DNA from: an uncultured Pelagibacteraceae bacterium
Lineage (GTDB): Bacteria > Pseudomonadota > Alphaproteobacteria > Pelagibacterales > Pelagibacteraceae
Length of the DNA: 64,000 nucleotides
Assembly (NCBI GenBank): GCA_902629935.1
Contig: CACOSU010000003.1
Location: 1 to 64,000, forward strand
Reading direction: 5' to 3'
The translations under genes and the position numbers were made by a program. The stretch's first letter is position 1. Every line of letters starts with the position of its first letter. Positions 17,661-23,421 of this stretch are shown here, in pieces. The notes beneath the pieces were generated by a model. It searched no databases. It had not been told where the DNA came from and saw only the letters and a program-made list of their open reading frames with translations.

Positions 17661-18770
17661 ATGGAAAAATTAATATTTAAAAAAGTAATTAAAGATATAA
17701 CACTGTTGTTTTTCTTGTTGTGTCTAACACTTGGATTAATAGTTTGGACGCTACAGGCTGTAAATTATCTTGATTTTGTTACACAGGACGGTCACGGTCT
17801 AAAAACCTATTTCTTTTATATCTTATATAATTTCCCTAAAATTATTCATCGATTAATTCCTTTTGTATTTTTTATCTCATTATTTTTAGTTTTAACAAAT
17901 TATGAAGCTAAAAATGAGCTGGTTATTTTTTGGACACATGGGGTAAGTAAAATGCAATTTGCAAACATAATAATTATATTGTCAATAATTTTACTTGTTA
18001 TTCAAATTTTAATTGGAAGCTATATCTCGCCTGTTTCTCAACTCAAATCTAGAACTTTTTTAAAAGATTCTAACATAGATTATTTTTCTTCATTAATTAA
18101 AGAGGGAAAATTTATAAATGCTGTAAAAGGTTTAACGATCTTTATAGATAAAAAGGATCAAGATGGAAACTTCAAAAATATATATATTGATGATTCTTCT
18201 AAAGAAAACACTAAAATTACATACGCAAATAACGGTAAAATTTTAGATATAAATAACAAAAAAATATTTAAGCTTTTTAATGGAAAAGTAATCAATAAAA
18301 AAAAAAATAAAATTAATGTATTTGAATTTGATCAAATTGATTTTAATTTATCAGATTATACAACTAAAACTATATTAACTCCAAAGTTACAAGAAACATC
18401 TACAAAAAACCTTATAGTTTGTTTTTTTAGTAAATTTAATTTTGAAAAAAAAAATGAAAAAATAAATTGCCAAGCTTCAATAAAAGCAGAAATAAGCCAA
18501 GAACTTTTTAAGAGAATCTATAAACCAATATACATTCCTATATTGGCTCTGATTTGTAGTTTTTTAATTTTGCTACCAAAAAATAATTCAGGTTATAAAT
18601 TGCAATCAAGTTTAACATTTTTATTTGGATTTTTACTTTTAATAATATCTGAAACTGCTTTAAGATATTCTACAGTATCAACCTTATCAACTGGTATATA
18701 TTTAATTACACCATTTATTTTGTTTATAATCATATATTTAATTTTATTCAAAAAATCTAAAAATGTTTAA
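17661..18770 (+). CDS. lptF: LPS export permease LptF
   Basis: YjgP/YjgQ-type permease, first of tandem pair followed by lptD. Confidence 0.88.
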   Translation: MEKLIFKKVIKDITLLFFLLCLTLGLIVWTLQAVNYLDFVTQDGHGLKTYFFYILYNFPKIIHRLIPFVFFISLFLVLTNYEAKNELVIFWTHGVSKMQFANIIIILSIILLVIQILIGSYISPVSQLKSRTFLKDSNIDYFSSLIKEGKFINAVKGLTIFIDKKDQDGNFKNIYIDDSSKENTKITYANNGKILDINNKKIFKLFNGKVINKKKNKINVFEFDQIDFNLSDYTTKTILTPKLQETSTKNLIVCFFSKFNFEKKNEKINCQASIKAEISQELFKRIYKPIYIPILALICSFLILLPKNNSGYKLQSSLTFLFGFLLLIISETALRYSTVSTLSTGIYLITPFILFIIIYLILFKKSKNV

Positions 18771-19842
18771 AATTTATCAAAAATATATTTTAAAAAAATT
18801 TATAAACAAATTTTTTCTTATCAGTTTAATTTTTTTTTGTTTAGCTGTAGTTTTAAATATATTTGAAGAAATTTCATTTTTTAAAAATTCTGATTCTAAT
18901 TTCATCTTACCCTATTTCTTAACAATACTAAATGCACCTATTACTCTTTTTGAAATTTTTCCATTTATTTTTCTAATAACATCACAATTTTTTTTTTATG
19001 AAATAATAAAAAATGATGAAATGTTCGTTCTTAAAAATAATGGATTAAGTAATCTAAAAATTATAAAAACTTTATTTTTCTCAACAATATTAATGGGTCT
19101 AATTATCGTTCTATTATTTTATAATTTTTCTTCAAAACTAAAATTTATTTATACAGATATTAAAAATAATTATAGCAATGATAACAAATATCTTGCAGTA
19201 GTAAATGAAAGTGGTTTATGGCTTAAAGATGAGACTGAAAAATCAATTTTAATAGTTAAATCAAAAAACATAGAAAATAACTTCTTAATAGATGTAGTAA
19301 TAAATGAGTTCAATTTTGATTTTAAGTTAAATAGAACAATTCAGTCAAGTAGAGTAGATATTAGTAACAAAAATTGGGTAATTTTTGAACCAACAATAAC
19401 AACTAAAAATAATTTACAAAACAAGTTTAATGAGATTAATCTTACTACCAGTTTTGATAATGATAAAATTCGTAGCTTGTTTTCAAATTTTTCAACATTA
19501 AATATTATGCAGTTATTTAATTTAAAAAAAGATTATGAAAATTTAGGATATTCATCTGATGAAATTGAAATACATTTGTTCAAAATTTTTATATCGCCAT
19601 ATTTTTATGCTTTAATGACTGTATTATCATCAATAGTAATGATAAGTGTGGTCAAAAGAAGCTCAATCTTTTTTAATATAATATTAGGAATTTTTATTTC
19701 TGTTGTAATATATTATATAAACTTCATGTTTTTTTCATTGGGAAACACTGGTAAAATCCCCACAGAAATATCAGTATTTTTACCTATTTTATTTTTAACA
19801 ATAATCACAATTATTGGTTTGGTTAGAATAAATGAAAATTAA
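18763..19842 (+). CDS. lptG: LPS export permease LptG
   Basis: Second YjgP/YjgQ permease; 8-nt overlap with lptF. Confidence 0.88.
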   Translation: MFKIYQKYILKKFINKFFLISLIFFCLAVVLNIFEEISFFKNSDSNFILPYFLTILNAPITLFEIFPFIFLITSQFFFYEIIKNDEMFVLKNNGLSNLKIIKTLFFSTILMGLIIVLLFYNFSSKLKFIYTDIKNNYSNDNKYLAVVNESGLWLKDETEKSILIVKSKNIENNFLIDVVINEFNFDFKLNRTIQSSRVDISNKNWVIFEPTITTKNNLQNKFNEINLTTSFDNDKIRSLFSNFSTLNIMQLFNLKKDYENLGYSSDEIEIHLFKIFISPYFYALMTVLSSIVMISVVKRSSIFFNIILGIFISVVIYYINFMFFSLGNTGKIPTEISVFLPILFLTIITIIGLVRINEN

Positions 19843-22486
19843 GATAATAATCAAGTCTCTATTATTATTTTTTATTTTTGAAATTTCTATTGCTGAAAAA
19901 TATACATTTGAAGTAAAAAAAATAATTTCTCTTAACAATGGGAATACAATTAGTGCATTTGATGGAGAAATAATATCAAAAAATAAAAATTTAAGTGTTA
20001 AAGCAAAAGAATTTAAATATTTAAAAGATTTAGATATATTGGAAGCATCTGAAGGTATAGCAATAATTAAATCAGAAAATTTAGAAATAATTTTTAAGCA
20101 ACTTAAAATCAATAATAATAATTTAACTCTTATAGCAAAAAACGGAATTCAAATTGATGATTTAAAAAACTCTTTAAACATTACTGGTGAAAAAATAGTT
20201 ATGGATCGATCAAAGAACATTTTAACTGCGTCTGGTGGAATTCAAATTGATGATTTAAAAAACTCTTTAAACATTACTGGTGAAAAAATAGTTATGGATC
20301 GATCAAAGAACATTTTAACTGCGTCTGGTGGAATTCAAATTGATGATTTAAAAAACTCTTTAAACATTACTGGTGAAAAAATAGTTATGGATCGATCAAA
20401 GAACATTTTAACTGCGTCTGGTGGAATTCAAATTGATGATTTAAAAAACTCTTTAAACATTACTGGTGAAAAAATAGTTATGGATCGATCAAAGAATATA
20501 ATTTTTTCTAATTCTTTAACAAAACTTAAAGATAAAAAAAATAATAAAATTAATACTAAATCATTTAAATATAATATTGATACAAAAATTGCTAAAGTAT
20601 CTAATGCATTGATAAACGATAATGAAAATAATAATTTTAAAATTAAAAATGCTACAATTAACTTGTTGTCAAACAATTTATTAGGAAAAGATATAGTAAT
20701 AAATTTAAATAATAAATTTATGGGACCTGATGTTGAGCCTACATTAGTTGGTAAAGAAATAAAATATAGAGGAAATGTTACTGAAATAACTGATGGAGCG
20801 TTCACGACTTGTAAGAAAACAGACAAATGCCCTCCATGGCAATTATCAGCTGATAAAATAACTCATAATAAAGAAAAAAAAACTATAAGTTACAAGAATG
20901 TGTGGCTAGAATTATATGATGTACCTGTTGCATATTTTCCTAAATTCTTTCACCCAGACCCTACCGTTAAAAGACAATCTGGTTTTTTAATGCCTACATT
21001 TAAAAGTTCTACAAACGAAGATGGTTATTTTAGTGTGCCATACTATAAGGTTTTAAGTGAAAATAAGGATTTAACTCTAACACCAAGGTTTTATGGTCAA
21101 GATCAATTTATGATACAAAATGAGTATAGAGAAGTAAATAAATTCAGCAAAATTACAAGCGATGTTGGTGTATATTCTGACAATAATAATAATATTCAAG
21201 GTCATTTATTTTACAATTTAAATAAAGATTTTAGTTTTGATGAATTTGAAAATAATAATTTAGAATTAAAAATAGAGCAGGTATCTAAAGACAATTATTT
21301 AAAAAAAAATAGGATTGAGTCTCCAATAATCCAAAATTATGAATTATTAGAGTCTTCAATAAAATTAAATATAAAGTCAGAAAACTTAAATATTAATACT
21401 AATTTAATGGTTTATGAAAATTTAAACATACAAAATAACCATGATAAATATGAATATATTTTACCAAAAATTGAGCTTGATAAAAGAGTGGAAAATAAAA
21501 CGAACCTGGAAGGAAATTTTAATTTTAAATCAACAAATTTTATTTATAATTATGATACTAATGTTTTTGAAAGAGTTAATACTAATAACCTTATTTTTAA
21601 TTCAACTCCAAAGATTTCAAAACAAGGAATTAATAACAATTACGAATTTATAATTAAAAACTCAAATACAAAATCAGATAATTCATTGTCACACAAAGAA
21701 GGAGCTGATCATTATCTATCTGGCCTTTTTCAATTTAATTCGACCTATCCATTAATAAAAAAAAATAATAATTATAGAAAATTATTAAAACCAAAAATAT
21801 CTTTTAAATTAAGTCCTAACAATACTAGAGATATTAGCAGCAATGAAAATAAGATTGATGTAAATAATATTTTTAATTTGGATAGAATCTCATCAAATGA
21901 AACTTTAGAGGGCGGTATATCTTTGGCATATGGATCAGATTACATACTTACTAGTGAAAAAAATAATAAAGAGATTTTTAGTTTAAAATTGGCAAATAAT
22001 TTAAGATTAAAAGAAAATAATGATATTGAGAGAAATAATCAATTAGGAGCAAAAACATCTAATTTTTTTGGAGAAATAACTTACTCACCAGTTGAGTTTT
22101 TGTCCTCTAGTTATAAGATATCAACATTAAACAATTTATCAGATATTAATTATCAAAATTTAATTACAGAACTTAAATTTAGTAATTTTACAACCACGCT
22201 AGATTATTTAAGACAGGATGGAGATAAAAATTCATATTTTTTAAATAAAACTACTTATAATTTCAATGATTCAAATAATATAAGTTTTTCAACAAGAGAA
22301 AACTTAAAATCTGATTTAACAGAATATTACAATTTATTATATCAATACAAAAATGATTGTTTAGTGGCAAGTATTGAATATCAAAAAGAATATTACAACG
22401 ATAGCGAGATAAGACCTTCTGAGAATATATTTTTTAATTTGACAATAATACCTTTTGGAACAGCTAAATCACCAAATATTCGATAA
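19832..22486 (+). CDS. lptD: LPS assembly outer-membrane protein LptD with tandem-repeat-expanded N-terminal OstA/LptA-like domain
   Basis: 884 aa; signal peptide, OstA-like beta repeats, LptD region (YFPKFFHPDPTVKRQSGFLMPTFKSSTNEDGYFSVPYYKVLSENKDLTLTPRFY) and C-terminal beta-barrel; lptF-lptG-lptD-surA order. Confidence 0.92.
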   Translation: MKIKIIIKSLLLFFIFEISIAEKYTFEVKKIISLNNGNTISAFDGEIISKNKNLSVKAKEFKYLKDLDILEASEGIAIIKSENLEIIFKQLKINNNNLTLIAKNGIQIDDLKNSLNITGEKIVMDRSKNILTASGGIQIDDLKNSLNITGEKIVMDRSKNILTASGGIQIDDLKNSLNITGEKIVMDRSKNILTASGGIQIDDLKNSLNITGEKIVMDRSKNIIFSNSLTKLKDKKNNKINTKSFKYNIDTKIAKVSNALINDNENNNFKIKNATINLLSNNLLGKDIVINLNNKFMGPDVEPTLVGKEIKYRGNVTEITDGAFTTCKKTDKCPPWQLSADKITHNKEKKTISYKNVWLELYDVPVAYFPKFFHPDPTVKRQSGFLMPTFKSSTNEDGYFSVPYYKVLSENKDLTLTPRFYGQDQFMIQNEYREVNKFSKITSDVGVYSDNNNNIQGHLFYNLNKDFSFDEFENNNLELKIEQVSKDNYLKKNRIESPIIQNYELLESSIKLNIKSENLNINTNLMVYENLNIQNNHDKYEYILPKIELDKRVENKTNLEGNFNFKSTNFIYNYDTNVFERVNTNNLIFNSTPKISKQGINNNYEFIIKNSNTKSDNSLSHKEGADHYLSGLFQFNSTYPLIKKNNNYRKLLKPKISFKLSPNNTRDISSNENKIDVNNIFNLDRISSNETLEGGISLAYGSDYILTSEKNNKEIFSLKLANNLRLKENNDIERNNQLGAKTSNFFGEITYSPVEFLSSSYKISTLNNLSDINYQNLITELKFSNFTTTLDYLRQDGDKNSYFLNKTTYNFNDSNNISFSTRENLKSDLTEYYNLLYQYKNDCLVASIEYQKEYYNDSEIRPSENIFFNLTIIPFGTAKSPNIR
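20144..20496 (+). repeat. lptD: 93-bp (31-codon) exact in-frame tandem repeat, ~3.8 copies, inside lptD
   Basis: Unit begins at 20144, 20237, 20330, 20423 (constant 93-bp spacing); encodes GIQIDDLKNSLNITGEKIVMDRSKNILTASG. Copies read identical at nucleotide level; the last copy diverges after 20496. Confidence 0.97.
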
Positions 22487-23421
22487 TGAAAGTTAAAATT
22501 TTATATTTTTTATTATTTTCATTATTTCTTATTAATTATTCAGTAAGTTATTCCAATGAAAAAATATTTATTGTAGCAAAAGTTAATAATCAAATAGTAA
22601 CCAATATTGATGTAAAAAAAGAAGTATCTTACCTTACACTTTTAAATCCAAAATTAAATAATTTAAATAAAAATCAAATTAATGAATTAGCGAAAAAAAG
22701 TCTAATTAATGAAACAATAAAAAAAAATGAGCTTGTAAAATTTTTTAATTATGAAAAAGAATTACCAATTATTAACAATATTTTTAAAGATTTTTATAAT
22801 AATTTAAACTTTACTAGTGAAAAGAATTTCAAAAAAAAATTATTGAGTGGCACAAATTATTCAATTTATGAAATTAAACAAAAATTGAAAACAGAATTTT
22901 TCTGGAATCGTTTAATATTAAATAAATTTAAAAATCAGGTTAAAATTGATGAGGAAAAACTTAAAATTAAAATCAATAATTTTGATAAAAAATATAAAAA
23001 ACAATATTTGTTATCAGAAATTTTTTTTAAAATGGATCAAAACATAGCTCTTGATGAAAAAATAAACAAAATTACAAAAAGTATAATTAATGTAGGTTTT
23101 AATAATACTGCAAATATTTTTAGTATTAGCGAAAGTTCAAAATATGGTGGAAAAATTGGTTGGGTAGATGAACAAAATCTATCGCAAAAAATTTTAAACG
23201 AACTTCTTAAAATTAAAGTTGGTGAGTTTACTAAAACAATAAAAATTAATAATAATTTTTTGATTTTAAAAATCGAAGATATAAAATTAAATGAAATTAA
23301 AAATGATAAAAAACAACTTCTAAAAAAAATGATAGAATTTGAAAAAAATAAACAACTAAATCAATATTCAAAAATTTATTTTAACAAAATTAAAATTAAT
23401 AATTTGATTAATGAAAAATAA
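22486..23421 (+). CDS. surA: SurA-like periplasmic peptidyl-prolyl isomerase/chaperone
   Basis: Signal peptide, KVNNQIVTNIDVKKEV, parvulin-like region (YGGKIGWVDEQNLSQKILNELLKIKVGEFT); between lptD and pdxA. Confidence 0.82.
   Translation: MKVKILYFLLFSLFLINYSVSYSNEKIFIVAKVNNQIVTNIDVKKEVSYLTLLNPKLNNLNKNQINELAKKSLINETIKKNELVKFFNYEKELPIINNIFKDFYNNLNFTSEKNFKKKLLSGTNYSIYEIKQKLKTEFFWNRLILNKFKNQVKIDEEKLKIKINNFDKKYKKQYLLSEIFFKMDQNIALDEKINKITKSIINVGFNNTANIFSISESSKYGGKIGWVDEQNLSQKILNELLKIKVGEFTKTIKINNNFLILKIEDIKLNEIKNDKKQLLKKMIEFEKNKQLNQYSKIYFNKIKINNLINEK

Follow-up and report, generated by a model that had tools for sequence, protein, structure and literature searches.

An exact tandem array of probable jellyroll-hairpin modules in LptD of a Pelagibacter-like family in which a separate LptA is undetectable

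The canonical bridge for lipopolysaccharide (LPS) is that of E. coli, LptB2FG-LptC-LptA-LptDE, for which it has been described as unclear how many LptA monomers make up a bridge (PMC7347655). Distance matters to the Lpt system, because a longer Lpp in E. coli makes key LPS transport components essential (PMC8824477). For Borrelia burgdorferi, one study places an N-terminal jellyroll at residues 76-293 of LptD, reports that models of domains of 212-218 residues measure 52.9-55.2 Å, and compares Lpt domain lengths of 41.9 + 55.2 + 52.9 Å with a periplasm of about 160 Å (PMC10353723). A six-protein E. coli bridge works one component short, LptC being dispensed with through laboratory suppressor mutations in LptF (PMC9972910). 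Variation in the copy number of in-frame tandem repeats is known from the E. coli envelope protein TolA, in which it modulates stress tolerance (PMC3477136).

The locus studied here lies in a window of 64,000 nucleotides, the whole stretch of DNA analyzed; its assignment to a SAR11-type, Pelagibacter-like family is based on gene content, AT content, genome size, and how large the genus is. Its LptD resembles the E. coli system in having an arm and a barrel, in the presence of LptF, LptG, LptC, and LptB, and in the fold of the arm as judged by Foldseek; it differs in belonging to a family without detectable LptA and in an arm that is longer and varies by modules. It shares an N-terminal LptD jellyroll with B. 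burgdorferi, which, however, has a separate LptA, and for which exact tandem repeats are not reported in the available part of the study (PMC10353723). Whereas the E. coli bypass was obtained in the laboratory, the component apparently missing here is LptA, and the family that seems to lack it occurs in nature. TolA differs in protein and function, the unit described below being a predicted jellyroll hairpin. A literature search, in which most subscription papers were not searchable, found no report of an LptA-less SAR11.

The lptD open reading frame (ORF; 19832-22486, plus strand, 884 aa) overlaps the end of lptG (18763-19842, plus; TIGR04408, E 2.9e-45, below cut-off), which is preceded by lptF (17661-18770, plus; TIGR04407, E 7.7e-49, below cut-off). 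A SurA-like peptidyl-prolyl isomerase, weakly matched (PRK10770 SurA, E 0.0065), follows directly 3' of lptD (22486-23421, plus). That the gene encodes LptD, as originally predicted, is supported by the NCBIfam LptD model NF002997 (E 2.5e-17; 62 bits, below the strict equivalog cut-off of 683) and by a profile built from 15 relatives, which matches solved LptDs across the barrel start with E values of 2.5e-18 to 3e-6. Among the Pfam LptD models, none matched the window protein at E ≤ 1, and of 20 genomes examined from the genus, 12 gave a PF03968 score above the cut-off, the window genome (G000) not being one of them. A search of genome contigs with the window protein returned a single match, to a distant deltaproteobacterial sequence. 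The order lptF-lptG-lptD and the presence of LpxC, found in all eight genomes tested, are consistent with a transporter of LPS to the outer leaflet; since LpxC is present, lipid A is to be expected.

Within the protein, residues 1-21 (19832-19894, plus; MKIKIIIKSLLLFFIFEISIA) read as a likely signal peptide. The N-domain upstream of the array (19895-20143, plus) appears to contain diverged modules similar to the unit, with a weak match of the module hidden Markov model (HMM) at residues 46-73 (4.6 bits). Downstream of the array, the rest of the N-domain (20516-20800, plus) leads to the barrel part (20801-22483, plus), which begins at the conserved motif FTTCKKTDKCPPW. C327, C333, and W336 of this barrel-start motif are invariant in 21 relatives, and the FTTC of the window-type LptD aligns with the GSFTSC-type motif of enterobacterial LptD in a profile alignment.

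The array occupies positions 20144-20496 inside lptD and was detected by TRF with period 93, 3.8 copies, 100% matches, no indels, and a score of 706, that is, as 3.8 in-frame tandem units of 31 codons. The runner-up TRF array elsewhere in the window scores 74, a 48-bp sub-period of the lptD array being left aside, and the array is found once in the 1.2-Mb, 37-contig assembly. It is not a chance resemblance, because identity at a shift of 93 is 260/260 across the array and no other run of at least 15 identical bases occurs at this shift within the 64 kb. The unit starts at 20144, 20237, 20330, and 20423 had been given exactly, and the frame-preserving 31-codon period holds in the ORF. The accompanying statement that the copies are identical stands for units 1 (20144-20236, plus; GIQIDDLKNSLNITGEKIVMDRSKNILTASG), 2 (20237-20329, plus), and 3 (20330-20422, plus), which agree at 93/93 positions, including 31/31 third positions. 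It fails for unit 4 (20423-20496, plus), in which 74 bp are identical and the module runs on, diverging, to about 20515, so that over its whole length it matches the full unit at 81/93 positions.

What one unit represents was addressed with an AlphaFold2 (AF2) model of residues 22-345, computed from the single sequence without an alignment. The mean pLDDT is 46 overall, with block values of 54-81 over fragment residues 91-200, the repeat core, where the model places two strands of 12-13 residues per unit with a period of 31 (ILTASGGIQIDD and NSLNITGEKIVMD). A second model of residues 70-240 (mean pLDDT 50) was weaker and was left unused. Foldseek searches with the first model returned as top matches almost only Lpt jellyrolls at a probability of 1.00, including LptD (5iv9), LptH (4uu4), LptA (2r1a/2r19), and LptC (3my2). 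AF2 can be over-ready to build regular beta structures from exact repeats, and the hairpin model is therefore support rather than proof. Independent support comes from 126 relatives, most of them lacking exact repeats, in which the module HMM also finds a spacing of 30-31 aa, so that one 31-aa unit is best read as one antiparallel, two-stranded hairpin of the LptD jellyroll.

Structure prediction, named beforehand as a test, thus puts the window units inside the jellyroll, with moderate confidence in the repeat core only. The location of the array upstream of the barrel motif and the Foldseek matches agree with the proposal that it lies in an LptA-like N-domain jellyroll, and the suggestion that each unit adds beta strands takes the form of one predicted antiparallel hairpin per unit. 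Expansion of a linker or of low-complexity sequence was rejected, because the unit shares its strand pattern and 30-31-aa spacing with the remainder of the domain. A role in antigenic variation or escape from phages was likewise set aside, since the units would lie in the periplasmic arm rather than in the surface barrel.

Comparison with close relatives bears on the age of the units. A FastTree tree of the barrel-start sequence groups the window (L005) with G218 and G022 in a supported clade; G100, absent from the tree, has a similar LptD. All four carry units in one register, beginning at residues 104/105, 135/136, and 166/167, and copy number, proposed as a point of comparison among relatives, does differ (four in the window, four in G218, three in G022, and at least three in G100). 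In the window, G218, and G100, no differences separate the full units of any one genome. First units compared across the four genomes agree at only 52-68 of 93 positions (56-73%) and at 10-19 of 31 third positions. Units that are alike within genomes and diverged between them would indicate either homogenization or repeated re-expansion at one place, in keeping with the idea of recent duplication, recombination, or conversion. In another clade, copies form a decay series of 86, 78, and 73 identical positions of 93.

The window repeat exemplifies a recurrent process. We measured the N-domain from the start Met to the FTxC motif in 126 LptDs of the genus, one genome per species, in a sample that favors close and long relatives and so does not yield prevalence figures. 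Lengths fall into classes of 203, 229-242, 262-271, 291-303, 322-335, and 419 aa, that is, they are quantized in steps of about 31 aa from -1 to +6 units; the best-fitting step is 31-33 aa, and the Rayleigh p is about 4e-6 at 31 aa (26 non-baseline proteins, kinship ignored). The shortest class holds one protein and the longest comes from a single-contig genome. On the tree, length class changed at least 19 times and the state baseline versus extended at least 13 times. DNA-level arrays of period 93 occur in G218 (3.9 copies), G100 (at least three), G022, G182, G240, and G200. The single-contig genome G409 (L203, C1:616800-621800), whose LptD has 1,017 aa, carries an older array with a period of 180 bp, 2.5 copies, and 74% matches; because this period equals two modules, blocks of two hairpins duplicate too. 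In G391 (C8, L085), an LptD match with two in-frame TAA stops was reported.

Such a pattern could also be tolerated mutational noise, in which similar hairpins duplicate easily, the jellyroll tolerates extras, and copy number drifts without function. Duplications recur, decay, and differ among close relatives, as drift would have it, and most relatives do without extra units; indeed, since 100 of the 126 sampled LptDs have the baseline length of 229-242 aa, members of the genus do not need extra units. Yet all four members of one group carry their arrays at one register and in frame, and lengths keep to whole modules, although recombination between modules alone would give the same result. We regard drift without function as a real possibility, if a rather doubtful one.

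A misassembled array, with a true copy number below or above the assembled one, is a different concern, as exact arrays of 353 bp are hard for short reads. In G100 (L038), an exact 93-bp LptD array of this kind is cut off by the contig end, and in G185 (L039) the LptD match starts at the contig start, just past the array region; exact 93-bp LptD arrays may thus fragment assemblies and be under-counted. Misassembly cannot, however, produce the non-identical copies of G022 (80/93), G240 (78/93), and G125 (73/93), and the single-contig genomes G409 and G106 carry six and two extra, diverged modules, which makes an artefact very improbable.

The second line of evidence concerns LptA. The sister family, which belongs to the same order, has an intact kdsD-lptC-lptA-lptB arrangement in all six loci read. 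We searched 198 genomes (own-family ones at least 85% complete) with an LptA model at E 0.01: an LptA ORF of 148-159 aa was found in 18/18 sister-family genomes, and an LptA-sized ORF in 0/180 genomes of the window's family, the window's own included, in profile searches of fast-evolving, AT-rich genomes that could miss a strongly diverged LptA. The own-family matches were LptD-sized or LptC-sized, apart from one of 119 aa (G351), a partial one of 529 aa (G495), and one ORF of 1,526 aa. In 12 own-family loci, lptB lies directly 3' of lptC and the canonical lptA slot is empty, a count that leaves out the window's own lptC and one more locus, both at a contig edge. The window's family has an LptD arm of 233 aa against 143 aa in the sister family, a difference of about 90 aa, and this longer arm aligns with sister-family LptA (hhalign E 1.9e-6). 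A separate LptA is thus undetectable in the window's family and seems, on these profile searches, to have been lost.

It might instead persist, diverged beyond recognition, with the LptD extensions merely modifying an ordinary LptA bridge. Family models do score poorly here, PF03968 missing even the window LptD, and some other alphaproteobacteria likewise lack a match. We consider this unlikely, given the empty slot between lptC and lptB and the reach of the LptA model, which catches LptD arms of the family (E down to 1.2e-9) as well as LptC and yields no further LptA-sized ORF. In the complete genomes of the family, moreover, neither a sister-family LptA profile nor a family-specific LptD-arm profile detects an additional jellyroll ORF. 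In the wider class, an OstA-type match at E 1e-4 was present in 102 of 116 alphaproteobacterial genomes. Several near-complete genomes differ: G577 (5.4 Mb) and G611, for example, gave none at this threshold, and for G628 the only OstA-type match among those listed is LptD-sized. Undetectable LptA may thus not be unique to the window's family, and some other alphaproteobacteria may also be without it.

On balance, the array probably represents recently homogenized jellyroll-hairpin modules within a bridge that works without LptA and in which the LptD arm lengthens as modules duplicate. The stacked hairpins of the arm would form the lipid A groove; as the family has no detectable separate LptA, the arm probably reaches LptC directly. 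Since neighboring hairpins are alike, unequal recombination or slippage could add or drop exactly one module while keeping frame and strand order, and could likewise keep copies alike. The window protein, with three units, as assembled, beyond the usual single unit at the array site, would have a longer LPS-carrying groove. At 4.8 Å per strand, or scaled by the Borrelia domain models (PMC10353723), one unit would add about 8-10 Å and three extra units roughly 23-29 Å. The extent of LptD across the periplasm may be set by these hairpins, and we infer that copy number determines this reach. The idea gains weight because N-domain lengths are quantized and LptA is undetectable in the family. More tentatively, we propose that LptA was lost in this Pelagibacter-like family, its role being taken over by a modular, length-adjustable LptD arm spanning to LptC, and that bridge length evolves by copy number.

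The broader context, in which arms lengthen recurrently in a family without detectable LptA, is of greater interest than this single array. If a very abundant marine family indeed lacks LptA and bridges with a single-chain LptD arm that varies by one hairpin, nature has run a length experiment: species would differ by known integer steps, making bridge length directly comparable with the width of the periplasm. Among bacteria, it would also be a clear example of exact tandem units evolving in concert within a membrane-assembly gene.

Other components of the bridge were also compared. Compensation by a much-changed LptC was rejected, as LptC ORFs measure 187-202 aa with and without an extended LptD in the genomes compared. 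Only one jellyroll protein lies between kdsD and lptB at L207:2429-3022; it has a match to LptC (E 4.6e-6) and a weak one to LptA (E 0.0035). In the window's family, LptB (L207:1646-2422 and L219:1896-2645) scores 227 bits, below the NCBIfam LptB equivalog cut-off of 240, whereas sister-family LptB scores 333; judged by these scores, the LptB ATPase appears to have diverged in the family without detectable LptA.
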